From contig CAIIXF020000001.1 of assembly GCA_903813345.2 (NCBI GenBank), forward strand, positions 50,983,885 through 51,047,884: a DNA stretch of 64,000 nt. Reading direction: 5' to 3'. The notes under the pieces were generated by a model. It was not told where the DNA came from and did not search any database. It saw only the letters and a program-made list of their open reading frames with translations. Positions 2,502 to 49,490 of this stretch are shown here, one piece after another. Every line of letters starts with the position of its first letter. Position 1 is the stretch's first letter. The stretch is from Owenia fusiformis (Eukaryota; Annelida; Polychaeta; Sabellida; Oweniidae). A program made the position numbers and the translations under genes.

Positions 2502-2758
2502 ATGAAACATCACCAAGCATAAACTATATAGACACAATATTAGAGGATCTAATGGACATAGATCATTCTTTTATGAGTGTGTCATTTTTGATCTACTATG
2601 GAATTTAATATCATTGATGGAAGAAATGTTCATGGCCCTATGTTCCGGTGTATGAAATGTCCACATAATTTTTCATTGATTAATTGCTTATGGTCGTGTA
2701 ACTTTGTTTTTGAAATATTGTGGTAGAATCAAAGTATATTGTAGTTTTGACAACATTA

Positions 2759-3170
2759 GGGGAGGCATCAAAAGTTCAATGTCGGATTGGAAACTAAATA
2801 AATCTAGTTTTGACTCTGACCCCCCCCCCTCCCCCAAAAACTAAATACCATGAAAGTTGATCGCTGACTTCCGGTTTGAGAATTTGAAAAATTATTGCTA
2901 AACACGATCAATTTTTTGTTAATTCCTATCGTAATTTGCGGATTTTAACAACTATTGATAGAATAGAATCCTTTGGAATGATCTTGACGAAGAAAGCATC
3001 AGGTAAAATCTTTATTTTTAAACCATTTCAAGGCATTCTGAGTCAAAATTGCCAAAAATTTGAAATGTTGAAATTTGTCGGATAGCAAACTGAAATGGGT
3101 TTGAACCCCCTCCCCCCCTTACTAGATTTATTTAGTTTTCTATCCGACATCGAACTTTTGATGCCTCCCC
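2759..3170. mobile_element. MITE with ~50 bp terminal inverted repeats
   Basis: GGGGAGGCATCAAAAGTTC at the left end is inverted as GAACTTTTGATGCCTCCCC at the right. The inversion continues through AACTAAATAAATCTAGT against ACTAGATTTATTTAGTT. TTA flanks both ends, giving a 3-bp (TTA) or 2-bp (TA) duplication. The inner margins carry C-rich runs. It begins about 260 bp after the methyltransferase-like stop, and its left arm contains an AATAAA (2797-2802) that could act as a poly(A) signal for that gene. Confidence 0.65.
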
Positions 3171-3346
3171 TTATAGGTGTATAAAAGTCAATTGTCCAAA
3201 TTAATCACAATGTATCAATTTGGGACAAGACAAAGACTGGTCTGAATAAAAAGTTGTGCAGTTTTTTATTTAATTTTTATGTGTGTAAATCAAATTTTGG
3301 GAAATTTCTTTTTCTCAGCATTACTTCAATCTTTGAAAGAATAAGA

Positions 3347-3352
3347 AATAAA
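3347..3352 (+). terminator. Candidate poly(A) signal for the upstream methyltransferase-like gene
   Basis: AATAAA on the + strand about 850 bp after the stop. An alternative AATAAA lies at 2797-2802 inside the MITE. Neither can be chosen without transcripts. Confidence 0.25.
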
Positions 3353-3824
3353 GCATTTGTCCAGAGTGTTTCAGAATATGTGGAGAATATTTCAAACATT
3401 GATAAGTAATTTAACAGTTTCTATAAACTATCGACATGCATGTAGTGTAGGGAAATAACAGCTAGGATTCAGCATGAATTATGTAACAATTTATTTTGAA
3501 CTATTTTCTTACTTTCTTACATCTCTATATATACGAGTATGTTTATAAGCAGTATTTTATAAGCAAGGATAGCAGAGATTTTTCTCTACTAATGCTAATT
3601 AATTATACACTTTAAAGGGGCAACAGCATATAGAAAGACAGAATAGCACCACCAATTTTAGAGTGTTCATTATATATTTGTGTGCTATAAGCAGTTTTGT
3701 TCCATATGTTGTGAAATATGCCAGTGTTGTGAAAAATGCCTGAGAACTGCCATTGGAGCCCAACACTGATCTTAGAAGGCTCTAAAGACATATTTCACAT
3801 CATAGATACAAACATGTACGTGAT

Positions 3825-4776
3825 GTACTTTATACATTTATTCCCATGGCAAGACCATGTGTGGTAGGGGGTAATGACAAGTACTTTATACATTTATTCC
3901 AATGGCAAGACCATGTGTGGTAGGGGGTAATGACAAGTACTTTATACATTTATTCCAATGGCAAGACCATGTGTGGTAGGGGGTAATGACAAGTACTTTA
4001 TACATTTATTCCAATGGCAAGACCACGTGTGGTAGGGGGTAATGACAAGTACTTTATACATTTATTCCAATGGCAAGACCATGTGTGGTAGGGGGTAATG
4101 ACAAGTACTTTATACATTTATTCCCATGGCAAGACCATGTGTGGTAGGGGGTAATGACAAGTACTTTATACATTTATTCCAATGGCAAGACCATGTGTGG
4201 TAGGGGGTAATGACAAGTACTTTATACATTTATTCCAATGGCAAGACCAAGTGTAGTAGGGGGTAATGACAAGTACTTTATACATTTATTCCAATGGCAA
4301 GACCAAGTGTAGTAGGGGGTAATGACAAGTACTTTATACATTTATTCCAATGGCAAGACCAAGTGTAGTAGGGGGTAATGACAAGTACTTTATACATTTA
4401 TTCCAATGGCAAGACCAAGTGTAGTAGGGGGTAATGACAAGTACTTTATACATTTATTCCAATGGCAAGACCAAGTGTAGTAGGGGGTAATGACAAGTAC
4501 TTTATACATTTATTCCAATGGCAAGACCAAGTGTAGTAGGGGGTAATGACAAGTACTTTATACATTTATTCCAATGGCAAGACCACGTGTGGTAGGGGGT
4601 AATGACAAGTACTTTATACATTTATTCCAATGGCAAGACCAAGTGTAGTAGGGAGTAATGACAAGTACTTTATACATTTATTCCAATGGCAAGACCAAGT
4701 GTAGTAGGGGGTAATGACAAGTACTTTATACATTTATTCCAATGGCAAGACCAAGTGTAGTAGGGAGTAATGACAA
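3825..4776. repeat. Minisatellite: 17 head-to-tail copies of a 56 bp unit
   Basis: The unit starts GTACTTTATACATTTATTCC and ends GGTAATGACAA. Starts fall every 56 bp from 3825 to 4721 with no length change, so 17 x 56 = 952 bp exactly. Copies differ only by substitutions. Most of units 1-7 read ACCATGTGTGG and most of units 8-17 read ACCAAGTGTAG; units 4 and 14 carry the E-box-like ACCACGTGTGG. There is no reading frame through the array. Confidence 0.95.
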
Positions 4777-4848
4777 ATGGTTTAAGGCAGTCAGATCTTT
4801 GACCACATGTATTTTCTAATCATAAATACAACATTTTCATAAAACTAC

Positions 4849-5233
4849 AGCCCATTTCACTGTTTTATTTCATCAGTAGAACCCCAAAAATAAGAAATCG
4901 GGAGACCATTGTGCAATAATATATGGAAAAGTATATTCATATTGTACATGAATGACATTTGTATATTTCAGATTATTTAGCTTTTTGTGCAATAAGCCTT
5001 AGTGTCCTCTTGTAATTTAAAGAATTTCAGCCATGTTAATCTTTTTGAAAATACTATGGCAGAGAAGCATCAAAATATAAGAGGCCACATACTTTATTAG
5101 CTTAACTAGATGCAATGCAAGATATACAAATGTCATTTATGTATAATAGGAATATATTTTTTCATATATTATTGCACAATGATATTTTGATTTCTTATTT
5201 TTTAGGTTTTACTGATGCAATAAAATTTGGGCC
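4849..5233. mobile_element. Imperfect foldback element (MITE-like)
   Basis: The left arm, with AAAAATAAGAAATC and CATTGTGCAATAATATATG, is matched in reverse at the right by CATATATTATTGCACAATG and GATTTCTTATTTTTTAGG. The arms are about 130 bp and diverged by substitutions. They flank a short unpaired centre. No ORF. Confidence 0.6.
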
Positions 5234-5897
5234 ATTAATAAATAAGTAGTCCATTTTCTTCTATCACCATTTCCAAACCATGGTGGTTTGAAAGCTCATG
5301 GTTTCCAATAACGTCTAGATACACACCCCCTAAAATTTGTATATTTTACATTTTGTGTGATCTCATCCACTGATGTATGGCCTCTTGAAAATTCTCTAAT
5401 ATTTAACATTGCAAATTCTCACTTCAGCAAATCCAGCTAATTATTTATTGCCCAAATTGTAGTTAAGGTCCCTAAAATATCAATCTAGGACTATCAGCTA
5501 CCATACCATACATGGTCCTTTGTAAGACATCACATATATGAGTACACATACATGCATATGAGTTAATTTGATGCAAATGAAAAAGATGTGGGAAGATTTA
5601 TTAATTATTAGGCAAACTATGAACTATGGCTTATCAGAACTGTATATTTCTACTACATTTCCATTTATTTTTCCTTTTTTTTTTTTTTTTGGTATGCAAT
5701 GCAAACAGAAATGTATGTGAAAAGATTATGATCTTTCAAATTGTTTCATTAGTACTTTTTGTAATACTGTACTTTAATGACGTAGTATATATTGAAGGAA
5801 TTATGAATCACATGTATTTCATATTGAAATGTAGAGATGTCTGATTCTGATAAATATTCTATTTTTCTAAAACATGTATCATGTAGGATTAGCATTT

Positions 5898-6087
5898 GTA
5901 ATGACCCAGTTGCTATTACAGCTCAGCCGTATTGACAGTCTTGATAGCTCAGTTTGTAGAGCCTCAGACTCTGAACTCGAATGTCCTGGCTTCGATTCTC
6001 CTATGGGGCATTGAATTTAGCACACTCCTTTTCAGGTCTGTATCTGGCTTTTTACACCACAGCTCCTGGGGGTGCCTGGGTCATTAC
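5898..6087 (+). mobile_element. tRNA-derived SINE-like unit bounded by a 12-bp inverted repeat
   Basis: TGATAGCTCAGTTTGTAGAGC (about 5942-5962) matches an RNA polymerase III A box and tRNA D arm, and GGCTTCGATTC (about 5988-5998) matches a B box/T arm. The spacing fits a tRNA-like head. The acceptor stem is not convincing, so this is not called as a functional tRNA. The unit is enclosed by GTAATGACCCAG (5898-5909) and its exact inverse CTGGGTCATTAC (6076-6087), which is unusual for a SINE. Confidence 0.5.
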
Positions 6088-9000
6088 ACATTCATGCTTA
6101 TTGACTTTTCATAAGGATGAAGATTGCATCAAATAGCCAGGGGATACTAATATTTTGAATACTGTCTTCTTATATTTATAACTAAATGACGTTTATATCT
6201 AAAGAAATCCAGCTGGGTTCTGTAGATGTTGGTCTTACATCAAGTTCTTGTGCATCTCCATCCCACTTCCAACACCTTTTATACTACTCATATGTGTAGT
6301 TTCATCATACTTTAATAAAAAGATTTTGCCATTGCATATCTACTTTTCCAATAATAAATAAATCATGTTGTACATTGTACTACTAATATTTATAATGCTT
6401 TTTTCTATTTTGGTTCAAAGATTGGTCATTTTGCCCTGTTGCAAGGATTATACCTCGATTTGAGTATGATACAACATATCCATATTTTCACATGTGATTC
6501 ATTATAAAGTGTTTGGAGACCATGGACTTGATCCATAGACAAGAAGTTATTTTGTACATCATATATTCTTATTTTTCTACAACTTGTGTTATATTGAACA
6601 ATATTTTGTGACTGAATTTGCTGGTCATATTATAAACAGGGTAAACAGTGTAAGATACAAAATGTTAGGAAGGGGTTGATGCCAGGGGCACACATTGGTA
6701 CTCTTAATACAATGGTACTATTATAAGTGCAAAAGTACTATTATTCAGTTCACATGAGTTCTGATCAAGAGTCATATTAAAGAAAACAAATTACAACTTA
6801 TACATACCAACATAAAGGTACAATGTAGGCCTAGTAGTTTACTTTTGAATTACTATGTACTTACTAGAATGTGTAAAGGATTATGGTGAATTCAAGAGTT
6901 GCAGATTTAAAGTTTTTGTTATTATGTATTTGTTAGATGTGTTTGTGTACACCATATGTGTAAGTATATATGCACCATATTATCAACTCAATCACTTTAC
7001 AAATATGGAATAAATTGTTAATAATAAATTATATCTGGATGTTATTTTTAGGTTTTAGTTTAAGGAATATTTAGTTCTTGAAATATATAAAATAGATATG
7101 ATGAGATCTTTGACAGAAAAATTAAATCAGTAAGGATTATCTGAAATTTACATGTCAGTCAATTTTAAAGCAATATTCAAGTGTCTGCAGATTTGGCAGT
7201 GTTGAGGCTCTAACCATGTTGGCGTGGTGATTGGCAACTATGAATGTATGTGAATATGGAAAACTATGTTATCAATTCTTTTATTTATTCATAGATGTCA
7301 TCATACTGATAGGCCCATGATTATTATAATTCAAGAAGTTATTTAATCAATTGACGAGTTGATGTAGGGCCATAGCTAGGATTTACGGGTTTTATACAGG
7401 CGTTGATAAAGTTTCAAGCAATAGAGAACTCATGATTTCATTTTCTCTGTATCATGCTTGTTTACACCTATGCACGTATTGCAATATTTTTTCATCATCT
7501 ATCATTGAACTGTTTTGTATTATATTAATGTATACACAGGAGTACCTCAGCTTCAAGGCTGTAATTACATGTATAACTTTCCTACTTACATATGTATAAC
7601 TTTCCTACTAACATTGATGTAAAGCACTGCTTTTCTATATAGTTAGCAGTAGGAAATATAATTCTAAACTGTTCAGAGAATATCTTTTGTTTTATATTTG
7701 ACTAAATATACAGGGTGGGCTAAAAAAACAATACCCAACAAAGGCGTCACATAAATAATGTATCATATTAAAGATTCCAATATTTTGGTATATAACATTA
7801 TTAATTTGAAAGTAACATACTGGTTTCTGAGGTAGGGTCAGTTTTATGATTTATCTGATTTACAAAAAACAGATATATCTATTGGCCTCTATTGCATTAT
7901 CATTTAATTGATTTATGCGTCAACTGTTTAGTAGACAAGATGAAATGATTGCCTCATGGAATACTTACTTCTAAAATACAGTGTACTTATGTATAACATT
8001 TGCTTACTAAAAACATGTAAATTTCATATCTCAATGCATTATTTTACATTAACAAAGACTTCCCCAGATGAAATGGGACCTACCGAAAGGGTATGCCCTC
8101 CATCATTTTTGTTACTGGTGATCATTGTCAGCATTTTACCCACTTGTTACGTTAATCCCTTGTGTCCTTCCTTTCAGCATTCAAATATTATTATGGCAAA
8201 AAGTTGTTCAGGGACATTCTGAAAAAAGTTTTGAATTTTGATTGTGTTTCATGATATCAGTATAAAAAATTCAATAATATATTTTTTGAATTGCTTGTAT
8301 CATGGACTTCATACATATAGCAACAGTGTTCACTAAGAACTGAAATTTTAGATAGATGGCATCACGTTAGAATATTCTAAAATCAGATGATATTTATATA
8401 GTCCAATATAATCATTAAAATTGAATTTGATTTACTATATGCACCGAGTTCACATGCTTCCTGTCTCATTCAAATTGTCTAGACAACTAATAAACATACA
8501 TGATAAAGACATGTTTATTAGAAAACAAGGGAAGAAGAACAAATAATATTACTTACACCCGTTATTTATCAACAAACGGGGAAAGTTATTATGAGCCAGC
8601 AACCTTGAAAATTTTAAAACAAGACATAATAATTAACAGCATAGTACCATTGTACCTTAGAATGCTTAGATATTAAAGGGATATATTGCAGGGACAATCA
8701 AGGTTAATTGCATGTTTAATGTCCTGTTTAGGGACTGAATCTTAGGAGGGTGGGAGGTGAAAAATTATGAAAAACAAAACACTCATTGTATTTCTTTATG
8801 GTTTCATGTATTTTTCAATGGTGAACAATACAATACTATACAAAAAGACACTCCATTGCATTGACACTCCATTTCAATTCATGTAAATGTTATTAATGAA
8901 GGCAATATCAAAACTGAAATACAGGTAGTTTTGTATATTCATATAATGCTTTCAATATTTTATCGCAAATGTATTCAAAATCTCAAAGTTCCACTTGTCA

Positions 9001-12721: not shown

Positions 12722-15700
12722 TCACACTAACTCTGTGCCTGGTGCTGTCAATGGTTCTAAAGTCTGCAAAACAAGACACATATACATGAATAGAGAGCCT
12801 CTCAGTTAGCTTTTGAGTCAATTATTGCAAAGAACTTCTTTGAAAGTTTACCGAGTCCATTCGACTTCGATAATTATTTTATATTTTAAGATTAAATATA
12901 CAAGAGTTTTTTTTAAGTTGACAACATTCACATTAACACAATACGATACAACAAGCGACAACTGAGGTCTATGATGACCATGCAGGACCCAATAGGAGGT
13001 TGACTACATGCTTTCATGAATGAATACATTCACAGAAAATCATACAAAATTAACTACATAAAAATTAAACAAGGATGACTATAGACATAAATAGTAATAA
13101 CAAAGCTAGGTTTACAAAATAGACAAAAATAAAAATAAATAAAACTAAAATAATAGATGCTCATGCTGCACCACACACTTACAGAATCACGACTTACAGC
13201 ACTATGATGGTGTGTTGACTGTCTAGCTGGCTGGTATTGATTTTTCTCTAAACTAAATTGATCTTCTGTAGTTTTCCTATACACTGGATTGTCAAAGTTC
13301 ATGCTCTTTGTTGCTTTCCTCCTGTAGTTACGCCATACAAGAACGCCAATCTGGAATTCAGATTAACATAAGTAAAATAATGGCTAATGATTAAATCACA
13401 TAAGTGTATTTTACAAATAAATTGTTTTTAAAAGAAATATAACAATGACTATCATTTGCGCTTTTCATAATCAACGTAAATACACGTGTTGCTTCACTTC
13501 TGATTTTTATTTTTGATGGATGCAAGATATTTGAATAGTTCTATTTTATAACACCATGCAATACTTACAATTACAACTATGATGAGCACTCCAACAACGA
13601 CTCCAACAATGATGCCAATGAGTTGTCCACTGTTTGAATCTTCGGCTTCTGGAGTTTTGATATGTGTCTTAGGGGTAGTAGTACCATTCATCACAACAAC
13701 TGGTGGGTGGTGTGGGTCTGGTTTGTAGGTAACGGTGTGTTCTGAAGATATAGAAAGTAACAATTGAGCATGGTGTGTTAACCAATTAAAATAAAAATGA
13801 CAAGAGGCTGAGTTCAAATCACACCCTGCATTGATGATGGATGAAAAGACCTTATTCAAAAACAGAAATTGAAAGGACTTCAATTTCTGTAAACATGCTT
13901 TCAAATATGCAAATCAACTTAAAGTTGGTTGTAAAAACCAAATAACACATTCAGATTTATATTATAAAACTCTAATGGTCTCCGTGGGTCCTTCATCTGA
14001 TCTGTGTCACAGCATGAGGCCTTTGGTGCTCCAACTAATAACAGTGCAATTCTAATAGAATAAAACTACCATACATAGTGCAATACACGATTTGCTTAGG
14101 AAAGTCATGTTCACAAAAAGTGTAGAACAAATGCTTTATTTTTAGCCAAATATTTGATTGTACAACAAATATGTGTATTTTGCAAGATGTGTTGGTATAA
14201 AAACTAAACATTATCAATTGGTTGTATCTAAGCATGCAACTTAAATAGTGAAGCCACCACACAGACAAGCACATGATGATGATCAAAGTGATGAAAATGA
14301 ACCTTTTATAATCATTACTTTCACAAAGAAGAAATTATAACTTCAGGACTACTATTAGGGGTTACCATTTTAGGTACATCACTCAAATGGCTAAAATTAC
14401 AATATTAACTTATGATTAAGACGAGTTTGCACATGTGAGACTAACACTAAGTGACCATCACTAAAATATAAGCCAAACAAAGAAGGTTCAAAATGTTTGA
14501 GAACAGAACTTCTTCTCACCACTGGGAATTTGGGCAGTAATAGCTGATACTGTATTTGGCTGTGTGATGGCAGGGGACTGACTAGGATTAGCACTACTCG
14601 ACTCAACCGACTCAGTGGTCACTGCTGCAGCAACTGTTGTTGGCCCTAAATCGCAAAACGATCCAAAAAATGAAGCATATTAGTGATGTGTTAATCTTAA
14701 AACTAAGGAACATCCCATCAGAAGTCTCCTTTTTAGTAACGACGTTATCATAACAACTCGGCAAACACAAAACAAACATAAATTTCTGGGCACACAACTC
14801 CAGATCAGAGTTAAGAAGATTGACAGACTTATCTAGTAAAACGTATCTGTAAGACTGAAACTCACTTGTATCTCTGCATGTCTGTTGGTCTTCTGCAAGC
14901 TCCCAGCCAGATGGGCAGGCACAGGCCACCTTGGCTGATCTTGCATTCAAACGCGCTTTGGGCAGGCACAAATGAGAACATTTCATGGATTGTGCTTCAC
15001 AATAATTGGTTCCAGCAACCTGTTTGAGAGGATGGTACACATGGATATCCATGGGGGAGAACAGATTCTTGGCCACCTGGGTGTAGTTCTTGCCAGTGAA
15101 TTTGTTCATTTTGCTAATGGATTCCAGTTTCCAATCTGTCCAGTAGACATAGTCCTCGAAAACTGTGATGGAGAATGGATGTTTGAGTGTATTCTCATCA
15201 GTTAGTAAAAGTTGTCTATGGAGTCCATCAAGGTCAGACGAGTCAATACTGTGTCTCTTGGCATCCACCCAGAAGAGTCTGCGGCTCACATAATCTACAA
15301 CACATTACAAATACAGTTAAATATGAGAGCCAATATGTATTTTGGTAAACAAGATTTAAAGTCTGTAATTTGAGACTTACAAAATAGAACTAAACATACA
15401 ACTAGTGCTAAGATGGGATTTGGTGCTTAGTACTGCTTACCTATAGTGAGACCATTGGGCCACTGGATGTTATGTGTGACGATTTGTTCACGGGTAGTAC
15501 TGAGGCCATCCATAGAGATCTTCTCAATTCTTGGTTTGCTTCCCCAGTCACTCCAGTACATCCATCCCTCATGTGGGTCGACCACAATAGCTCTTGGTTC
15601 ATCCAGGTCAGTGCTCACAAGAACAGAACGCTTGGTGTTGTCATCTATATGTACCACCTCAATAGTGTCCTTGCCAGTGTCTGTCCAGTAGAGGAGATGA

Positions 15701-18700
15701 TGAATCCAGTCATAAGCCATGCCATCGGGGGTTGCAATATCACTATTGATCAGCTCCATACGATTTTCATTTCCGATATCTTTGCGGTAAATTCTCTCTT
15801 CTGCAACATCGGACCAGAATACTAATTGGCGAGCATGATCGTAATCTGTAGCAACAGCACTTCTGGTTCCATCCACAAATGACTTGTAATCTTTAGTAGA
15901 GTCTAATTTGAGAACTCTGACATCACGTCGATTACTAAACAATAAGGATGGCACGTCTCCATTAGCTTTACAGAAGTGTGGTCTGTTGTTAGTATTACGC
16001 TCCAGTGTATATCCATCATAGCAGTCACACTTGAATGAACCAATTAAGTTCTTGCATAGTTGAGAGCAAGTACCCGGAATAAGGCACTCGTCAATGTCTT
16101 CACAGCTCTTACCATCAGCTCCTAATTTGTAGCCCTTATTACAAGAACAGAAGACGTGGGTGAAGGCATTGGTACATGTGTGGGCACAACCTCCATTATT
16201 GGTTTTACACTCATTATGTTCAGCTGAAAGTAGAATACATTTACATTACAATCAATGATAACATAGTTAATGGTTCGGCTTATGTCATACATTTATACAC
16301 TATTTTGGGGTTTCAACATTGGATTGTATGACAAACTAGTGATGATAAAACTTTGAACCTTACCAGTCTGACAGAAGGAGTCGGTTCCTCGAGGTTCATC
16401 TTCACCACTTCCACAGTTAGCTGTTCCATCACAGACCTGACTGAGTTGAATACATTCACTGCCATCTCCCAGACAATCAAACTCGGTTTGTTCATCACAG
16501 TGAGTGGTTGGGGTTGGACAATCATCCTCATCTGACCCATCCTCACAATCAACAGAGCCGTCACACTGAAGCTGACCAGAGATGCAATCATTGGGACCAC
16601 ATTGGAACTGATCAGGTTTACAAGTGATCTCCCCGCAATCACGCTCATCACTTCCATCATCACAATCCTCATCACCGTCACATTTCCAGGCGATGTGGAT
16701 ACAAGAGCCAACAGCACATTGGAACTCCTGTTCCATGCATTGGGCGCCAGGGGGTGTAGAGGGACAGTTTTCTTCATCGCTGTTATCTGTACAGTCTTGG
16801 TCCACGTCACAGCGCCATTTCAGGGGGATGCAACGACGGGTCTTGTTGCACATGAACTCTTCGGGAGAGCAAGTTGGAGGAGCTGTAACCACATAGAGAA
16901 TACAATCAATTTATCATTTAATGTAAAATGTATACAAGATTCATTATAAACATTCATTTAAAACTACAACATCATTAACGTCATTAAAAAATATCTTTTT
17001 GGGACTTGTCTTAAAATATCACAGGATTTAAGGTTAAGCAGTGAACAACTTCAAAAATGAACTTACCACAGTTATGCTCATCTGAATTGTCTTCACAGTC
17101 ATCATCACGATCGCAGACCCACCTCATGGTGATACAATTGCCATTGGCACAAGTGAACTCATCATCTTTGCATGTAAAGTTTTCTGCAATATAAGAATGG
17201 AAATAATAAGGCAAGTGAACAGTACAATTTCAAGAATACAGAATATATTATACAGGGTGGTGGAACATGGTCCATTTGGAATAGTAAATTTCACATCGGG
17301 CAAAGTGAAAGAATTGATTCATTCTGCATATTATTAGGTTCTCCACTATGAGGCTCACATTCAGCCATGTATAATCTTTTAATAATGTTAAAAATTTCAA
17401 CTTACGGCATCCTTGTTCATCCTCCCCATTTGGGCAGTCTGCTTGTTCGTCACATCTCCAGGCCTTTGGAATACACTGTCCATTGTCCCCACATGCAAAT
17501 TGTTCCTCATCACATGAGCGGCTTTCTGCAAACAGAATGCATTGATATTTTGAAGGAGTGTATGGCACTCAACACATTTATAGAACAACAGTAAAAGTTA
17601 ACTGATAGTTTGTCATGACCTTCTACTCAAATCATGCTTTTAAGGGATGGCACTTTTCTATTCAATGAACTTTTAAACAAATATACTAATATTTCATCAT
17701 CTTTTAGAGGCTTCATAAATTCTGCGGTTTTAAAAATTCCATTTAAACAAATGACTGGCTGGTTTACCAGTCAGGAAGTTTAAAAAAATCCTCTTTTATT
17801 AGAAAGAAGGTAATTAAGTATGCTGGTAACCACACATTTATAATCTAGTCCAGGATATAGTTCATGTTAATTTCCTCAATTCCAACATTTCAAACATCAG
17901 GCCATATCCAGGAAACCAAATAGAACATTTTCTCTTTACGTAGATCATACTGTCACCTATACACAGTTTCTAGAACCCAAAATTTGATTCATTATTCAGT
18001 GCATAAAGAGTATATAAAATATTGACTTAAAGGCTCGACAGTTTGGTATTTTTCAAAGATTTGACAAGGCACTGTTTACATTTGTTTATTCTCAATGTTT
18101 ATATAGTTTTAGCGACCACCCTAACTAACACAGGTAAATCATTTATCATTTATTGATTATCTATTGTCCCAGATCAGGCCATATTAACTTCCAAAAATGG
18201 ATGAAAATAGAAGGAAAGTGGACATAAGTTAATGATTATTAATTTTTATCTTAAGTACTATAGTAAGTTCAGTATTAAGTTTTGATTGACTGTTAACATA
18301 AACCTTTAGCTTTAGTTTCTAGATACCCATATTGAGCTGCATAGTTGTAGTATGAATGGATTTTATGTGTTTGAGTGTGTATGTAAACAGGCAGGCACTC
18401 CCGAGTATCACACCATATTACTGCATGAATAGCTGCCTGCTATGTTAACTGAGCTTCCCAGGTCAAAAATAAGCTCACAATTTAAATGTTGAAAAGTGAA
18501 CATTTGAGATAATGAAATGAACTTGTATTGTGAGGAAAAGAACAGACATCAACAATAAAAACTTTAGAATTACTTCAGGTACTCCTAAATGTCAACTGAA
18601 TTATTTTGCTCTTTTCAAATCAACACTATCGCTGAAAGTTAACAATTTCGACAAGGCATTAACATGCAAAATGTCACTATCTGCCATTTCTTACAGGAGC

Positions 18701-21700
18701 CAAACACTGTCAACAAAAAAGTTGGAGACAATAACTATATGTCACCATTTGTGTAGGTGACATAAAATGAAAAAAATGATATTGAATTGTGAGAAAACAA
18801 CAAACAAAGCAATAGTTGCTCTTTTCAAGGTTTGGGCAAATGTACACTTCCTGCCAGACACGATTATGATAAACATCACGCATATCTTACGAAATATGTT
18901 TTATAATAAATGATGTGTTTACCAACAAAAACTTTAGAATTACTAAGGGTACTTCTAAACATCAAGTGCATATCAATAGAATTTATTTTCTGAAGCGGCT
19001 CGTCTTTTCAAATCATAACAATCAGTATTATGTCTGAAAGCGACTGTTCATTTCAAAACAACTACCCTCCTCTCACATTGCATAAAATGACATTACAAAA
19101 ACTTATGTTAGCAAAGAATCCTTTGAAGTAATTGTTTTTATGTTTAAAAAAGAAAATAATTTAGATAATTTATAAATTAAATAAATCTTTTTCAAGCAAA
19201 AGACAAAAGTTCTTCAATCATGACATAAGATGAGTATTATTGAATTACAAGAATGACTCAATTTCCATGTCATGCTAAAAAGAAGTTTCAGAAGTTCAGG
19301 ATAATACCACAAACACAATGCCTGCTCAATCTTGTCACAAACAGGTTCTAAGAAAAACAACTCTGATGATATTACACTACATCATTTTCCTATAATCCAT
19401 TAACACAAATAAGTGTGAGAATGACGTATCAGTAAGCTCAAGCAGCAAAATAAGCCAATGAGGTTAACTACAATGACATGACATCACTGAGCTTATAGAG
19501 ACTTGAGCTAAACTCGCAAAGGAGAAAACTGCAGTTGTAATATACAATAAGACGGTTGATCCTGATTCCAATAGAGAAACCACGTACGACACAACATGTT
19601 ATGGAAATAGGAGTGACTTGTTAACACCATGAATGAAATCTAGTTAAATACATGTACTATTGAATAATTTCAAATGATGAATTGTAAAAACTTCCAAAAC
19701 AAGATTGAAATGCTTAACTGCAAATTAAAGTGTGTATACATGAATAAAATTCTATGGTTTCCTATGAAGTGTAGAAAAGAGTTACAAGAATCAAAAACCT
19801 CCCCCTAAACATACCATCATCAGGTGATGTTTAACCGCTCTTTTTGACATTGTTAACATTTAGTTCTCATGACAGTGACAGAATACCAGCGTATAAGCGA
19901 CTTCATTATCAGGAACCAGTACAAGACTATTTGTGTTAACTTGATCAAATGCTCTAACTGTTAAGATAAGTAAAGTTATATTGGGTACTTAGACAATGAT
20001 AGTAAAATCTTTGTGAATAGTAGCAATGCCATCATCAACCTTATCATATCTAAGAACAACAATAGATATCACATTGAAGAGCAAGAGCATGTCTTTACCA
20101 CTTATCTTGTCATTGAAATAGATATAGTCCAACATTATAGATATTAATGTCATTACTGTCATTTCATGTTATAACGCTCTAACTTTTAAGATAAAAGTCA
20201 AGTGTCAGGAGGTTTTGATTGCCTGCTCAATGAAAACAAAAAATTGATAAGCTCACACTTAGTTAAGACTTGAAGACTTTTATGAGAAAGCAAACACTTC
20301 AAACAAAAAACATGCTCTTGATATTGCCATATATAGTGCTGAACAGTATATGGGGTGATTAATTGGAGAACTGGGAGTGTCAATATTTAGTGCAAAAGTT
20401 ACCTCCTCGGAGTCCTTCCACTGACAATTATTCTCTAACATGATCTTCACATTCATAGTTATTTTAAGGTTTCTTACCACAGAGTTCTGGAGCTTCATCA
20501 GTTCCATTCTGACAGTCAGAATCATTGTCACACATCCATCTAGTTGGGATACATTTGGTTTCACCTGGGCAGGAAAATTCATTCTCACTACATGTCCTGG
20601 GTGCTGCAATCACAAAGCAACAATATTATTATATTATTAATCACCAGTCTATCACAATATCGCACTGAGATTATGGGACATGCATCAAAACTGTTGATGC
20701 TTAAAAAGTATGTACAAATTCAAAAATAACCTGGCCAGAAATCAGTAGCATGTGGTTTAATTACATATATTGCTTAAATATGGTCATGAGTATACAGCAT
20801 TTCTACATTTTTACAGCATAATATATAGCCCAAATATCCCCCAATTCAATCACATGTACCAATTTCATAACAGGCTAGGTTTTCAAACCGTGATATAATT
20901 TAGTAAGACGTCATGCAAAGTCACCAAAGTAAACAACATTAAAAAATGAGTCAATTGATCCTAGTTTAACTTGAAGTGGAAAACACAGCCTGACCCTCTG
21001 TGCCAATATAGAGACAGTGTGGGACATGTGATATGAAGTATGAATGACATTGAGGTGCAGTGAGGGCGATGCATTATAAAAAGCCATTCATAGATAAACA
21101 ATTTTAAAACAACCAGATTGTAAGAAAATGACTGACAGGAATGCGTAAGGTGGCCTGATCCAAAACTCAAGTAGAGTTATTTTTACCATTATAAAATTAA
21201 CCCAAAACTATCAACTTGTCAGACAAGAAATGATCTTTTTTACACTATCTTAAACCTTGGAATAAATCACGGCTATGTAGTATGCCCTGAAATAACCATA
21301 AACCATCACACCACCATACCGAATGTGCAGATTGGGTTGAAGCTCATACCTAAATACATTTCCATAACATTGACTAACCATCAATCTTGTTCAAGCTTCA
21401 AAGGAAGTAGTGCTGTCCCTAGGTCTGATTTCGTTACTCGGCTCGGAAAAAAGGTTTGTGGGTATCATTTTGTTCCAGACACTCTCTAGAATAAATTCAT
21501 CTTGGGTGGAGTAAAAATGTGTGGTAAACGAATTTGCTATGGGCAATTAAAGTGGCGCCATCTATTCATTTTCAAACATGGGGGTAGGGGTATAAAATGA
21601 TTTTTTAACAACGTTTAGAAGTAAAATGTAACTGAAATACTAAAATTATCTTATGGCAAACATAAAGTTCAATTAACATGAATTATTTCATGTGGATTGG

Positions 21701-24700
21701 GCTGACAATAAGATCACAATTTGAAATTCACTACAGTGGCGCCACCTATTTTCGTACTTCTACCACAAATAATAACTTATTTTAGCTTCATTAAGGGTCA
21801 GATATTTTTTAGTTATTATGAATAAAATAGGGGGAGGTAGGGGACATATGATGCAGGGGTAGTTATCCTCCTGAGATATTATAACAAGGTAATATAAATT
21901 AATTAGATAAACATGGTGTTTTCCCCATATTTTTTATTTTCAAAAATTACTTTACATTTTTAGTGTGTTTATATTGTTCATATTATGGTAATGAAAAATG
22001 CTACTATATTATGTGATCATGTTTCAATCAAGAGTTAGGATAAGATCTTGTATAGTTTTAGAAAAATTGTCATTTAATATTGAAAAATGCTCACTTCCAT
22101 TGGTTCTCATCTCTATTAGTTCATTCGAACCCTTGGGTTTAAATATATAGCACATGTGTTCTTACATCATACATCTCTTTACATCATAAATATTTTTACA
22201 TTATCTACATAATCTGTATCCCATTATAATAAGCTTATAATTATTGGAAGAAAGTATTTGCTTATTTATAAACAACTTTTTTATGCCCTACCCAAGAAAA
22301 CTTTTCAAAAGTAGGTATGGTCAAAACATGTACTTGCTCAAGGCAATCTATAGTTTTATATAATAACAATCAAATAATATACTGGTTATGTATAGTATGA
22401 ACTGGGTGATGGAACACAAGAGTAGTTTCATATTTGTTCATTAAGTTCACATTTAGTTAGTATATATACTCAAGTAAAACCAGAAATAACATACCATACT
22501 ATCTTACAATTTAACTTCTACTTTATACACTTTATACTGTGCATGATATTATGTCACTTTCTTTATTCTTGTGCATCTGTCAGAATTGCATTCAACAGAT
22601 CACTGTCTTTTACAAAAGGATTTCTGCATTTGTTTGGTTCAATGCTGGAACATTTGCAAAATGAAATGCAAAATTCCCCACTTGCTCTACAAGTACACGA
22701 CGCCTGGCTACATGAAGTACAGTTGCATTCTGGTACCAAATCACTTGGCATAATCCTGGTATTTTGAATTGGCAAGAGTGTATCACCTGAATGGGATTTT
22801 TCAAACCCAAAGCTCAAGGGGTCTAGTTTGATGGCTTCCTTGTTTAATACTGTCAACATCTGTTGAGTGGCAAGAAAAGCTCTTTTCAGGTGATCTGCTA
22901 TCAAATGAGATGTAGGTGGTAAACTACTAATGGTTGCAGATTTGGTGTGATGATATATCCATACCCTAAGATCATTCATATTTGTGGCTCTACTTTTTGG
23001 TTTAATTACTTTCACCAAGTAAGCTTCTGCATGAGCATAAGTAGCCTCAGATGGATCTCTTCCAAATTCACTGAGATTCAACATGAACTCTTGTTTGACT
23101 TTGAGTGCTGCCGGTTTTGTCCCAACTTTACTAGTTACGTCTGACCCTGTTAGGAAATGAATGGCAGGGAGAATTCCACACATTTCCTTTCCTACTCTCC
23201 CTGCTAAAGTATGAATGGGTATAAGTCTTGTGGTGTTGCCAACCCCTGCTCTTACCCATACTTCAGAAGCACCATTGTTAACAAGTGCATCTGCATAGTT
23301 CAGGAGCATCACTATGACATCAGTGTCGTTTGATAACACTATTATCCTTGTATATCCCACCAATGCAGCATTGTTACAGTGTGGTAAGATTCTAAGGTCA
23401 GCCTCTTCAACAGGGCTTTCAATATTGGGGATATTTTGTGTTGGATTTTCATTGAAGCTTTGACTTTTGAGGGGGTTTTCGCCAATCGTACCACTCAAAA
23501 CAAATGTAATATACTTGTTGAGCTCAGCTTGTTCCTCAATGGTGTCTCTGAGAAGGCATTGTAGTTTTTCCTTGTTTATGTTTGATGTCCAAAAGTTTTC
23601 CATGTTATTTGGCATAGGGGTAGAGTTGGTCATGGTTCTTAGCTCCATTGGTTGTTTCATGCCTCTGCGTTCTCTCTCTGAATCCTTTATAGATCCTTTG
23701 ACATATGAGTCAAATATATAATCAATTCGGTTTGCCTTCATCGCCTTGCAGCAGTTGATGGTATGCCTGACAATGGTCTGACAGAAATCTCCAAATGTTT
23801 TGGACATTTTGCCTGCTGGGGTAGAGGATATCCTTCTAATCTGGCCCATGACATCAATTATGCATGCTGTTTGTGCTGATCTCCATTTGTTTGGTTCAGT
23901 CATGTCCTCTTCAATCAAGAATTTGGTTTCTAATTCTCTGATAAGTTGGGATTTTGTTGCTTGCTTCATTTGATTGTTCTCATCAAATAAAGCATTCTGA
24001 TGCATGAGGTCATATTGGAGCAATTTTCTTGTATCGTAGTTCCTTTCCTTAGCAACAGCAATAGTTCTTTGGGATTTATCTTTCTTCTTTGGGTCTATTT
24101 TTCTTCCTTTCTTGGCTTCTCTTTCCTCGATGCTTTCAAATGTTTTCACATTTAACCTGTGAATTGGAGCTGTGATGTCAGTCTTTTTCTCAATGAACCT
24201 CTCTTGCCTTATGGTTTGATATGCATCACCTCCAGTTTGTTGAATATTCAGGAGACTCTTTCTTACATCATCAGGCATTATCTCCTGTGTCAGGATGTTA
24301 TGAAGACGCGGTTCAGATTTCATGGATTTAATCAGAAAAGGATTGTTTTGCTCTTCAATATATGCAACTATTTTGTTGACATGTGAGTTCATTGTTGATG
24401 TTTGAGCAGATGTAAACTCATGGTGCAGGTAAAGGTCATTGCCATCTGTTTTGGTTAACCCTAAGAGATCTTTAAAGACTGAAGAAACCAGTAACATCTC
24501 ATGATGGATAAGCTGCCACTCCGTAACATAGTCTTTTTGCCTTGTGCTGCCTATTATGCCTGATGCACTCTTACCAGAACGATTGATTGTTTGTTCTAAG
24601 GCCATGTCAGCTGCAACAGCATTGAACCCACCTTCAGTGCGTTTAACAACAAAGCCTCCATTCATGAAATAATCATGAACTTCAGGTGCCACATCTGGAA

Positions 24701-27700
24701 GTCGGCGCATATCCTCCAAATAAATGGAGGCCCATTTGACATAGTTGGTACTGTCAAATGCTGCGAAAAGTGGCAAAGCATCTTGTACTGCTTGTAGATG
24801 AAGTGGCCAGTCTCCTGTACGGTCAGCACGGATCATATTCTTCAATGTATTTGTCATTGTGACAAATTGATTCCAATACTTGACGGTTTCTGATGCTTCA
24901 CATGATTCACGTTTGAACTGACAAAAATCTCTGAGTAACTTTTGTCCCTCTTGCTTTACATCTTCTAGAGCCTGGATTGATTTGTCTTGTTCCTTAGCTT
25001 TCACTCTTTCCTTTAGGATCTCCACTAAGGCCAACTCCTTGCTGTATACGTCTGTTCCAGTTAGCCTTAAGAATTCGTTCCATTGGAGCCTTTCAATAGC
25101 CTCAGCTAACAGGAAGAACCCAGTGACAGATCTTGTGTAATGCTTCCCCTTTAATACTGAGATGTCAACTACTTTTTTGCCAAATATACCTGCTTCAGTC
25201 AGAATTATATCAGCACCACTCCCACGCAAATATTTTCCGATATTTCCACACAAAATTTTTGTCATATGGAATGTACCTAGGCATAGAACAAGGGACTGGA
25301 ACATTTCAGGGTGATGCAACTGAAGTGGTTTTGCAAGGCAATAAACTCCCTCGTCACAGAATGTTGGTAAGAACTGTTGTGCTTTGAGTTTGGTCAATAC
25401 ACTAATGAAATTTTTCATGGCAGTGAAAACAGTACCAAAATCAGTTACAGGGTATGGAAGGACAGGTGGGAATCCTACAATCTTGACAATGAGACCATCT
25501 TTATTTGTTATAGAACAGAATGAAGCCCAGGAAGGCATTCCCTGGTCTTCATTGATTGCACTTGGTGTTTGATTTAATGGCATATTTTGGTCATTATTAT
25601 TGATGTCTGACTCTTGACTTGATGGAATGTCTTTGTCTTTAGTTTTGGTATCATTCTGAGTTAATGTGCAGGTTCCCAACCTGGAGAGACTCCAAACTAT
25701 GTTTGCATCCTCTATTTCTTTCAGATCTTTCGGGTCCATTCTATATTTTGATTCTTGTACTTTGTAATCATCAGGGAGCTTAGGTTTTGAGGTTGGTTTT
25801 ACATAATCCTGAAGGATCTGGCAAGGAAGTTGACCGAATTTTTTGGGGTCGACCTGATCTATTTCCACAGCTGAAATATTTGGTTTGAGACCTTCCTCCC
25901 TTGGGGAATCTTGAAATAAGACACTAACTGTGTCATGTGTACCTTTTTTGCCACTTAGGGTAGACTCCTCGTGGTCAAAATTATCAAGTGCTGCAATAGT
26001 GTACCCATTAGGGTCAAAATTGCAAGGGAGTGGCATGCCTTCTTCAGTATTGGTTGCTACTGCATACTTAGCGATGTTAAGGTGGTACTTGTCCAATTCA
26101 TTGTAACTCATGCAAATACCCTGATGATTGAACCCTGTTATTAATGATTTACTCTTGCAAACCTGATGAATCATTTCAGCATTCAATACAACAAGAGGGG
26201 ATTTTACAGTGCCACTGTTAATAATATAGTGAATGAACTGATAAACTGAGAGCACTTTTCTAGATTTAGAATTTGATTCATTTACACCATTAATGTCATC
26301 CTTGGATACATTAAACAATGTGGCAAAGAATGTCAAACAAGGTTCTGGAATTGATATGTCGAGCCAGGCTTCTTCAAGGTCCTTGCTGTCCATAAATCTG
26401 TCTTCCAGGCCAAAGTCAATATCTAGAAATGTGGTTCTGAGCTGCTGACTGCACTTGACTACAGGATCTTCATCTTCGATCAAGCTTGTGTTCTAAAATC
26501 AATAAATTGAATAGCCTTGATTAGTTCAGAAAACGTTTTAATACATCTCTTACATGTGAAACAAGGGACTGTGAATGGCATTACATGATAAGATGGACAT
26601 GAAGGAATATACACGAATCAGTTCAAAAACTTGTCCTGTTCAAGTTTGGTTTCAAACCAATATATCAATCATGATTCTTTATCTAACCATCCTGAGAAAG
26701 AGTACCATTAAAAGATTATAGTATTCATCATGGTATTATAGTATTATCGCATTCATTCATGGAGTAAGGCTGATATAAGTGTATATAAGTGTTAATGAGA
26801 AGCTGATATAGTTTTCACTGGACAATTAATATTTATGGAAATTCCAATTATACACACCAATTCAACAGGGTTCAGCTTATGTGGTAGAAAAAAGACTTCT
26901 GACTTGAACCGGCTTTTTGGTTTGCAGAAATACACCTCATTGCCATACTTTTCCTTAAGATACCGTTTTACAAGTCTTTGTTGAACAACCTGTGTATCGC
27001 CCATCAAAGTACACATTTTTGAACACACATCAGCTATTGAATATGCTCTACCATCATTGAGGTGTGGTAAAATGTCATTTAAAACTGATTGGAATGCCTC
27101 TTTGGGTGTTTGGCATTTACCAGATACAGTAGGTGTACATGTTGATTGTTTTCTAATGCTGGCTTTATAGTTGGCATCATATTGTTTGTAACATGCTAGA
27201 TGATAGAACAAGTCAGCTGCAAAGACATCTTCAGGTTCGGTTAAATCACATGTTCTTGTATACACAACATCTTTCAAATGTCTTGTTTGCTCTAGGAACT
27301 CTTGTGCTTTAACTTCAGAGCAAATACGAGATTTTTTATATACTTTGTTTTTTGAAGCTTGATTGCAGTAAATGCACTTAGAATGGAACTCTGATACATT
27401 TTTTGCTCCAATTGGGAGGGGACGGGGACATGTGGAGCGCCTTGTTATCCTGGACTTGCTATTACTCTTTGTCACATCTTCTTCTGAAGTACATTTGAAG
27501 AAGTTCAGCGAAGATTTGTTGACATAGTTTTTATAGCAGTTATTTGTCAAGTGGTAAAATATTGGGCATTCTTTACTTTCAGCAATTTTCAACCTCTTGG
27601 AGACAATATCCTGTCGTATTTTGCTTGCCTCAAGTATACGTTTCTGAACAACAGTTGATTTTGTTGGAGGAACAATTTGCCCATTCTCATTAATTTGCTG

Positions 27701-30700
27701 GTCTTGACAGATAATACATTTGCTAATGTCAAAATCCACGATTGGACTAGATGTCATATTGATATGAGGTCCTGAAAGATAAATAATGATGAACAAATAA
27801 ATATATGCCAATGTATACATTGTGACAAATAAAAATCTTGTAAGCTTATTTTCATAAAAAATAAAATGCTACCAGAACATATTGTATTGCTAATTACGTA
27901 ATATGCTGTCTCATTGAAAAATATAAATACTCATTTTGAGGATTTTGACTTAATTTTGTTTTGAAAAATAAAATAGGATAGAAATTTACCTCAAATAGGT
28001 AAGAATGAATCATTTCTTCCATGCTGAGTATACTGTTCCTTCTTTTTGAAGAGTCATGACATGCCCCAAAGAATATTTTGGAGTATGTGTAATCAGTTGC
28101 CACATTTCTCTTCTAAGAGATATGTTTTGATTTTTTGATTTTTACCATGTATACATTGGCATTGTAAGATGGGAAATAAGTATTGGCAGATTATAGTATG
28201 TTTCTGTACAAGGTTTGATAATTCATCGCAAACAATATTTAGGAAGTATAAAAAATAGAGCCTAAAATACACCTGAAAATAAAATGAGAATAAGTGTATA
28301 ATATTTGATAGAATTTAATAGAATTTAAATCTAGATCAATACACTTTACAGGAATAATGACATAACAGGTTGTACGGAATGAACATAAGAGGATATATGA
28401 ATTACAGTATGTATATTCTCCTCTAAGTTGCCACACCCACTTGTATGACTTTTAAGGGTGGGGAAACATGGGGACTTCTAAAATTAAGTAGAAATGAGAT
28501 AATATAGATCTTAAACTGCATATAGTAGCATTTTTCATTTTCATAAAATGAACAATAAAAACAGTTAAACACACTAAAAATGTAAAGTAATTTTTGAAAA
28601 TAAAAAATATGGGGAAAACACCATGTTTATCTAATTAATTTATATTACCTTGTTATAATATCTCAGGAGGATAACTACCCCTGCATCATATGTCCCCTAC
28701 CTCCCCCTATTTTATTCATAATAACTAAAAAATATCTGACCCTTAATGAAGCCAAAATAAGTTATTATTTGTGGTAGAAGTACGAAAATAGGTGGCGCCA
28801 CTGTAGTGAATTTCAAATTGTGACCTTATTGTCAGCCCAATCCACATGAAATAATTCATGTTAATTGAACTTTATGTTTGCCATAAGATAATTTTAGTAT
28901 TTCAGTTACATTTTACTTCTAAACGTTGTTAAAAAATCATTTTATACCCCTACCCCCATGTTTGAAAATGAATAGATGGCGCCACTTTAATTGCCCATAG
29001 CAAATTCATTTACCACACATTTTTACTCCACCCAAGGTGAATTTATTCTAGAGAGTGTCTGGAACAAAATGATACCCACAAACCTTTTTTCCGAGCCGAG
29101 TAACGAAATCAGACCTAGGGACAGCACTAAAGCACAAATACAACTATTTAAAGTAAAAAAAATATGGGTACTGCTTGCAAGAGCTGGATATACAGTTTTA
29201 CTTGGAAATTTAGTCATTCCAACTTTTCAACATAGCATATCATAAACCGTAATCCAGAACCAGGAGTAAGAGTTTGTTAACCCCACAACTTGAAACACAA
29301 TTGACTCTGACCTCTTTAACGAGGGAAAGCAATATAATATGCTGGAAAACATATATCATGAACTCTTAAAATTATAGTCAATTAAATTCTACAAAATGAC
29401 TGCACAGTTGATATTATATCTGATTTCATTTCAATAATGGTTTGATCATACAAAATTAAATGAGTTTTTTTTAATTACAAAAGAACTAGTTAACCCGTTT
29501 GTTATCTATGTGATAGGTTAAATGTAGTAAATTATTCGGTACATCAGAGTTTACAGTCACTCTTTTTTGGCAAAAACAAGGTGAATCAATTTATATCGGA
29601 TGATTTTGAGCTTGCATTATCATTGCAAATGAATCATTCCTCCTCTCGCAAATGCTCAAATAACTTGGCAATAAATTAAAACTATAAATATGATTGTATA
29701 TTTCTTTGGAATTGATGTTTCACAATTATATATTGAAGAACTAGAATGAGAGTTATGAACCCATGAACCAATTTTTATAAGCGATAATAATACTAAGGGC
29801 CAATCCAAGGTAACCACATCCTTTCATTTGCTATGGTTATCAACATCAGCAGTTTTCTACTGACCAATCAGCTTTCTAGATGAAGAGGGGTTTGGTGTAT
29901 TATAATATTAGATCACCTTACACTGGCGGTAATTCAATGAATGATCCTGCTGATATTTGCTTTATCCTGTTTGGCATTTTGAGCTGCATGGTATGCATGT
30001 AATGTTTCATGCGTCTTGAAAGTGAGAAATGATCCTCTTGACATTTCATGTTCAGACACCGACACATATATTTCAGGGCTTACAAATACCCCTGAATTCA
30101 AAGAAACCCAACTTTGTATCAAATCTACATTGAAAATTTTATCAATTTAAGTATAAAAAAAATATGAACTTCATTCATATATAAAAAATTATAGCACATT
30201 TATCTGGTTTGGATAGTTTTTCAAGCAACTAATCCATATTACACGTATCGAACATATAATAGTTGTAAAATATGTACAACATGATTCAGATATTGATTTT
30301 GTTATACCAATATGGCCTGATCTTATTATCATGTTGTCTGGGTAGACAGTCAGGGGAATTCACACAATATTGCCAAGTGCATATCAATGAAAATGGGTTT
30401 GGTGCAAGCAAAGGTTTCTATCTTTACTGCCTTCAGTAATCTCCCCCCACTATTAGTCAGTTTTTGGGTTGGTAGTTTCAAGTATCCATTACTCACTGGC
30501 AGATATATCACATGCAATTATATACACATTCTCATTCATAAGATGCCAGAGATACTTAGGAAGGGTGTAGCTGTAACCAGATCTACATCACCCCATCGCC
30601 ATATATTCCATTTATCAGCTCTCAGATATTTCATCTATAAAATTCTTTAGTTTTTACTGTAGATTTTGAGACTGCCTAGAGGCAATGAAGGCATAATGAG

Positions 30701-40562: not shown

Positions 40563-47701
<7,139 letters not shown>

Positions 47702-48983: not shown

Positions 48984-49490
48984 GGATGGAAAATCCAAAA
49001 TGGCCGCCTTAACATTTACCCAGAATGCAGAAAAACTAATGAGTTATAAACATTCATAGGTAGAAACATCCCTGAGAATTTCAAATGAATCCCTCAAATG
49101 GTTTGGCTGGAAACCTGTAGACAAGCCTTGACAGACAAGATTTTAGGACGGAAAATCCAAAATGGCCGCCTTAACATTTACCCAGAATGTCGAAAAACTA
49201 ATCAGTTCTAAACTTTCATAGGTAGAAACATCCCTGAGAATTTCAAATGAATCCCTCAAATGGTTTGGCTGGAAACCTGTAGACAAGCCTTGACAGACAA
49301 GATTTTAGGACGGAAAATCCAAAATGGCAGCCTTAACATTTACCCAGAATCCCGAAAATGTAATCAGTTCTAAACTTTCATAGGTAGAAACATCCCTGAG
49401 AATTTTAAATGAATCCCTCAAACAGTTTGGCTGGAAACCTGCAGACCTGTAGACAAGATTATTCGGGACGCCCACCCGCCCGCCCGGCAA
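48984..49490. repeat. 162-bp tandem repeat with ATGGCCGCC, ending GC-rich (array B)
   Basis: GGA(T/C)GGAAAATCCAAAATGG recurs at 48984, 49146 and 49308, exactly 162 bp apart. Shared inner blocks include CATAGGTAGAAACATCCC and GGCTGGAAACCTG. The third unit is cut short and ends at ACGCCCACCCGCCCGCCCGG. Confidence 0.85.

Follow-up and report, generated by a model that had tools for sequence, protein, structure and literature searches.

The 64,000-nucleotide stretch of the Owenia fusiformis genome analyzed here (the window; assembly GCA_903813345.2, contig CAIIXF020000001.1, positions 50,983,885 to 51,047,884 of the forward strand) carries a transposon-like element of 7,722 bp at window positions 21408-29129. 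Its ends form an inverted pair of 564-nt arms (21408-21971 and 28566-29129) that are 99% complementary, differing by four substitutions per 564 positions, all of them transitions; past an 8-bp indel there is a second, inward pair of 44 nt (91%). The left terminal inverted repeat (TIR; plus strand) starts TAGTGCTGTCCCTAGG and its outer part is common to the copies fetched from elsewhere in the genome; the right TIR (minus strand) finishes CCTAGGGACAGCACTA, and the termini read 5'-TAGTG ... CACTA-3'. The flanking letters, GGAAG/TAGTGCTG...CAGCACTA/AAGCAC, place AAG directly outside both ends (21405-21407 and 29130-29132, no strand assigned) as a 3-bp target-site duplication. The original prediction, made from the letters of this DNA alone, had proposed a transposon over exactly this span, with near-perfect reverse-complement ends of about 600 bp around a two-exon gene; it contained no duplication, which is added here. 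The observation itself (element, inverted ends, and two-exon gene) is confirmed, with arms, duplication, and termini common to other copies all bearing out a TIR transposon. Arms this long and this similar, and the recurrence of the termini and of 3-bp duplications in other copies, exclude chance.

Between the arms, a single open reading frame (ORF) joined from two exons runs on the minus strand from 27757 to 22563 and encodes 1,609 amino acids free of stops, exactly the size first proposed. Coding exon 1 (26858-27757, amino acids 1-300) holds two Cys/His finger-like clusters, recognized by eye and presumed to bind DNA. It is separated by a predicted phase-0 GT...AG intron of 365 bp (26493-26857) from coding exon 2 (22563-26492, amino acids 301-1609 plus stop), which was assigned from its ORF and its homology to two other proteins of this genome, L025 and L026, and which comprises a transposase core, a nuclease module, and a CXC cluster. 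Although predicted from DNA, the intron is credible because a relative, L011, keeps the acceptor at the homologous place, its exon starting directly after TTTTTTCAG, and has an exon-1 homologue about 4.7 kb upstream. Exon-1 protein gave 34 matches in the genome at E up to 10 (itself included), with a strong group at 39-49% identity, mostly over amino acids 108-300. Pfam was nearly silent on single proteins of the family, and an NCBIfam search of the window protein gave no match; a sub-threshold Pfam match of exon 1 was taken as chance, and weak Spectrin, ARM, and HAD matches in the family as coiled-coil or chance.

The transposase core (24393-26045, minus strand) contains three candidate catalytic residues, D470 (in DNFD), D680 (in CDEGVY), and E933 (in DMALEQ; full-protein numbering), which are invariant in seven of seven aligned proteins and from which we infer an aspartate-aspartate-glutamate (DDE) catalytic triad. 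D680 and E933 line up with the D and E of a DUF6589 protein. A Pfam search of the window protein for DUF6589 (PF20231) gave no match, and a search of the genome returned 17, eight of them over the cut-off and none in the window; they lie at G000:C11:14708020, C3:26995943, C5:17848263, and elsewhere, several in frames of about 2,000-2,600 amino acids. Comparison of the window protein set with L025 and L026, which score above the DUF6589 cut-off, gave an E value of 5.7e-60 at 19% identity, collinear over 921 columns in the order core, nuclease and then, by end coordinates, CXC. On this alignment the window protein is homologous to L025 and L026 along the core and nuclease, and probably along the CXC as well. 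Both resemble Academ-type transposases, L026 being truncated on the 5' side. L025 (G000:C11:19949800-19959700, ORF 1113-7373) encodes an Academ-like protein of 2,087 amino acids with DUF6589, Rad2-like motifs, and CXC that has, ahead of its DUF6589 match, a cysteine-protease domain of OTU type (Pfam OTU, E 2.8e-7, amino acids 740-892). L016, a member of the window's own set, reaches DUF6589 at E 1e-4 with 21.6 bits against a cut-off of 27. If DUF6589 proteins are indeed Academ proteins, this Pfam family without assigned function may be part of an Academ-type transposase; no mention of DUF6589 was found in the literature searched.

The nuclease module (22848-23891, minus strand) has acidic positions D1180, D1228, E1330, D1332, D1356, D1358, and D1418 and a motif, SxKxxERxRR, that supplies K1236, R1240, and R1243. 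Six of the acidic positions (D1228, E1330, D1332, D1356, D1358, and D1418) and all three basic ones are invariant in 17 of 17 proteins, distant members included, and D1180 is conserved in 16 and the adjacent E1329 in 12; the family thus possesses the conserved acidic set with K/R helix of Rad2/XPG nucleases. When family profiles were searched against the PDB (177,635 sequences), the nuclease-region profile of 13 relatives gave four matches at E up to 10, all of them Exonuclease 1 (best E 0.03), with VFDxY..SxKxxERxRR followed by G(C/S)D...G in the correct order. When hhalign compared the 13 relatives with 21 bacterial 5'-3' exonucleases (E 7.8e-4), EEAD, DTDV, and TGSD fell into catalytic register; the score was 34.9, whereas none of 100 column shuffles exceeded 21.6 and reversal gave 13.6. 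The 13-row set had passed a motif filter (EE[AG]D, DTD-like letters) that admitted four of eight added relatives and dropped L048, L053, L054, and L055; because such a filter favors conservation, the count was repeated with all 17. Nine rows assembled without the filter gave E 6.3e-4, and all 17 rows gave E 0.0039 with a score of 30.1 (23.6 at most in 100 shuffles). A comparison of eight bacterial exonucleases with nine relatives yielded E 0.0015 and a score of 31.9 (24.4 at most in 30 shuffles), and a two-sequence FEN1/XPG profile from the same genome met the nuclease region in register at E 0.004 with a probability of 8%.

Several of these results tell against a nuclease assignment. The Exonuclease 1 match consists of two pieces of about 40 residues with i-values of 97 and 5.7, neither significant alone; the hhalign probabilities are low (24.9% for the 13 relatives against the 21 bacterial exonucleases, 27.9% for the nine unfiltered rows, and 8.6% for all 17); and Pfam XPG_I, searched across the whole genome, gave 10 matches, none of them in the family loci. 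Taken together, the Exonuclease 1 matches, the hhalign comparisons, and the residues kept in all 17 proteins support membership of the module in the PIN/XPG superfamily as a Rad2/EXO1-like nuclease, as the original prediction had it, at the level of the family profile.

The CXC cluster of Tesmin/TSO1/LIN54 type (22593-22760, minus strand), likewise foreseen at the C-terminus, was located by alignment and by a profile of nine proteins. Against the PDB at E up to 1 this profile matched only LIN54 (5FD3, E 4.8e-4), a match that carries 18.5 bits of composition bias and is weakened by it. The Pfam CXC model applied to single proteins gave 8.9 bits for the window and 20.3 bits for L025, against a cut-off of 23.5. 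Family profiles match Exonuclease 1 and LIN54, but in single-protein Pfam searches XPG is not found and CXC stays below threshold. LIN54 recognizes TTYGAA, the cell cycle genes homology region (CHR). This hexamer occurs three times in the window element's TIR against 0.97 expected (P about 0.08) and not at all in the TIRs of two relatives, L012 and L019; in insertion flanks it was found seven times in 13 insertions against 3.8 expected, and once in five further insertions against 1.5. Neither enrichment is significant, so that the three full TIRs and the 18 insertions with their flanks support neither a TTYGAA specificity for the CXC nor its docking on TTYGAA. DNA binding is presumed for both the CXC and the Cys/His parts.

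The genome searched for copies comprised 498 Mb. The TIR's first 293 bp served as query, and the best 40 of 251 candidates were scored; two were the window's own arms and at least 38 others matched at 87-91% identity, and many of the matches scored form facing pairs 2-12 kb apart. A 12-kb pair lies at C10:1040572-1053048. Ten such pairs were taken whole (L001-L010) and six more were examined at their ends alone. The outer ~390 bp of the window TIR is common to eight of the ten at 87-89% identity, and ~340-350 bp is matched in L007 and L008. None of the ten has a match to the window protein or an ORF of 150 amino acids, and they are therefore regarded as non-autonomous. In L001-L006, L009, and L010 the inverted arms measure 0.9-1.7 kb and contain repeated inner units, against 564 bp in the window element. 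L007 and L008 are composites of two repeats, the piece of window TIR (from TIR position 6) lying inside a different and larger inverted repeat of ~2.2 kb.

When both inverted ends were compared, a perfect 3-bp duplication was present in 19 of 23 elements: that of the window, L001-L006, L009, the six further pairs, L011, L012, L019, L020, and L021 (by set, 13 of 13 and six of six, five of the latter scored by script and the pair L073/L074 by eye). The four others are L010, with imperfect ends; L017, whose ends were not resolved; and L007 and L008, TIR-like inside another inverted repeat. TAG...CTA occupies both ends in 17 of the 19. In the remaining two one end is altered, namely in L073/L074 (left end TACTGC, duplication TAT/TAT) and in L011 (left end TGA). 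L011, with its ends L061/L062 (G000:C8:31324686-31337091), is a 12.4-kb element with 615-bp TIRs that read TGATCC on the left against TAGTCC on the right, its AAG duplication being intact.

A genome search with the exon-2 protein, in which 35 of 621 candidates were scored, gave at least 52 matches; among those scored, the closest other than itself is L011 at 58% identity and the next full-length one L012 at 45%. Many relatives at 25-29% retain open frames of more than 1,400 amino acids, and several are broken by stops. Over 7,903 bp L012 and L021 share 99.5% identity, and L019 and L020 share 99.7% over 6,429 bp, each of the four with its own duplication and with flanks that differ from those of its partner beyond the TIRs, indicating that these relatives moved recently. 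L012 (C1:51706500) lies only 0.7 Mb from the window, L021 at C4:11457000; both are 7.9-kb copies, the frame of L021 being interrupted. The near-identity of the window's own arms gives no date, because the arms within L019 and within L020 differ by 3%; TIR divergence was dropped as a measure of age, those two copies being 99.7% identical and yet having arms ~3% apart. Between the window and L011 the proportion of synonymous differences is 0.81 (saturated) and that of nonsynonymous differences 0.27 over 1,273 codons, which argues that the protein has been kept by selection since the two split. For L013-L016, L018, L025, and L026 no TIR pair was resolved within the stretches fetched; L014 has an inverted pair of 148 nt at 80%. 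No relative of the family was found in viral contigs by the criteria of the scan.

Joined flanks of six elements tested whole were used to search for empty sites, the best 40 of 2,116 candidates being scored. Sites with a single copy of the 3 bp were found for L021, L020, and L001, and for L019 with CAC in place of TAC; the flanks of all four sit in repeated DNA. The L021 site (G000:C218:21888-22188, on a 25-kb contig) is 98% identical over 301 bp and represents either another haplotype or a repeat copy. L020 (G000:C1:31437328-31439845) lies within a tandem array of ~800-bp units, three nearby units of which span the junction uninterrupted. L012 and L002 gave no junction-spanning match among the matches listed, which says nothing either way, since the flanks of these two elements themselves are absent there. 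The earlier expectation of further copies and of empty sites is thus borne out for the ends, the exon-2 protein, and four other elements, but not for the window element itself: 803 bp of its interior, upstream of the coding region, match only themselves, save for 41 bp that belong to the element's other arm, and a genome search with each flank matched only itself. Since interior and flanks are single-copy, neither the element's own movement nor its empty site can be demonstrated.

The passages on Academ in the cited papers place it among the superfamilies with a DDD/E transposase (PMC9587614), describe it as amplified in bivalves (PMC10294476), and give duplications of 3 or 4 bp for AcademX and 9 or 10 bp for AcademH, a difference related to the nuclease or helicase that is encoded (PMC10045372). 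The window element has the 3-bp duplication AAG and, at the level of the family profile, a nuclease beside the transposase, like AcademX (Kojima, 2020, via PMC10045372), and its placement in the XPG branch of Academ, as first suggested, is upheld by the duplication length given there. Membership of AcademH, described there by 9-10 bp duplications and a helicase, was rejected on duplication length and on the lack of a Pfam helicase match in the window protein. We consider it highly probable that the element belongs to the nuclease-encoding AcademX lineage of the Academ superfamily, as a cut-and-paste DNA transposon of autonomous type. Weighing against this conclusion are the single-copy interior and unmatched flanks described above, two single-sequence AlphaFold predictions that are not interpretable and give no reliable fold (pLDDT, the predicted local distance difference test, of 36.7 for the core and 32.6 for the nuclease region), and the basis of the assignment, which is structure, duplication length, and domain content, Academ references having been compared by description only.

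A competing view makes the window family a sister lineage, with core, Rad2-like nuclease, and CXC in common with Academ but meriting a name of its own, the true AcademX being represented by, for example, the DUF6589-bearing elements. The silence of the window protein in the DUF6589 search that found 17 matches elsewhere, and the mere 19% identity to L025 and L026, are what such a lineage would lead one to expect; yet the collinear homology starts in the core, spans the nuclease, and by its end coordinates reaches the CXC, and L016 carries the window's own set to the edge of DUF6589, so that we regard a separate lineage as improbable. The 3-bp duplication and the letters CACTA and TAGTG at the ends might instead recall an EnSpm/CACTA transposon. 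CACTA elements begin with CACTA, whereas the window element starts TAGTG and finishes CACTA, its relatives L012 and L021 start TAGGTC, and the window protein has no EnSpm transposase match in Pfam; this identity is scarcely credible. Hardly more so is a domesticated host gene lying by chance between inverted repeats, for which the single-copy interior and intact ORF could be cited, since the TIR ends, the 3-bp duplication, and termini common to many dispersed copies are those of a transposon. The probable AcademX element described here, complete in appearance, is a good example of a known, little-studied group and not a new kind of thing.

How such a protein might work can be outlined from its modules. 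It would bind the long TIRs through the N-terminal Cys/His fingers, the C-terminal CXC, or both; most likely, the DDE-type core would then cleave the strands to be transferred and link them to the target at a 3-bp stagger, producing the 3-bp duplication; and the built-in Rad2/EXO1-like structure-specific nuclease would cut the other (5') strand or trim a flap of the transfer intermediate. The division of labor between the two nucleases, the TIR-binding domain, the DDE fold, and activity itself are all inferred. We put forward tentatively, with less than even confidence, that a single eukaryotic transposase divides the strand cuts between two unrelated nucleases, the DDE core serving transfer and the Rad2/EXO1-like module the opposite strand or the flap, while a LIN54-type CXC docks on DNA or chromatin. 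The nuclease might alternatively be no second catalytic center in transposition, serving instead in repair of the donor site or in binding of DNA structures alone. The Rad2 family is known chiefly from repair and replication, and the window family from sequence alone, which leaves room for such a role, but all 17 proteins, distant members included, keep the six acidic and the three basic positions, which suggests that catalysis is under selection, and we think a non-catalytic or repair role rather unlikely. Academ appears little studied, with no biochemistry in the Academ passages of the papers cited, and no assay was evident by title among the literature matches listed for Academ and assay terms. 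With intact ends, duplication, and ORF, and an outer ~390 bp of TIR in common with non-autonomous copies, the window copy offers a practical start for exploring why a repair-type nuclease is built into a transposase.

Elsewhere in the window, a receptor gene of LRP2-like type (LDLa, EGF, and YWTD domains; best solved relative LRP2) has exons on the minus strand at 13494-16910, the nearest recognized ones being ~4.5 kb from the left end of the element; this gene indicates that the host is an animal. Tandem arrays occupy 3825-4776 (56-bp unit), 43508-44030 (32 bp), 44396-45408 (347 bp), and 48984-49446 (162 bp).

Several known systems resemble the window protein in part. The nuclease region has the same order of acidic residues, VFD...SxKxxERxRR, and G(C/S)D...G as Exonuclease 1, FEN1, and XPG of the Rad2 family, but is embedded in a transposase of 1,609 amino acids. 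The CXC has the pattern C-x-C...C-x-C...C-x3-C-x-C...C-x-N in common with LIN54 (PDB 5FD3), which possesses a tandem pair where the window protein has a single copy. The DUF6589 proteins L025 and L026 have the same layout as the window protein, core followed by Rad2-like nuclease and a C-terminal CXC-like cluster, and differ in passing the DUF6589 cut-off and, for L025, in the added OTU protease domain. In Tn7, TnsA and TnsB pair a DDE enzyme with a second, unrelated nuclease, the two sharing the strand cuts. The window protein may be alike in logic, though its modules are in one protein and its second nuclease is Rad2-like rather than restriction-enzyme-like; if the proposed sharing of cuts is true, it would be analogous, in self-contained form, to the way TnsA and TnsB divide their labor, with an unbroken copy testable in cells.

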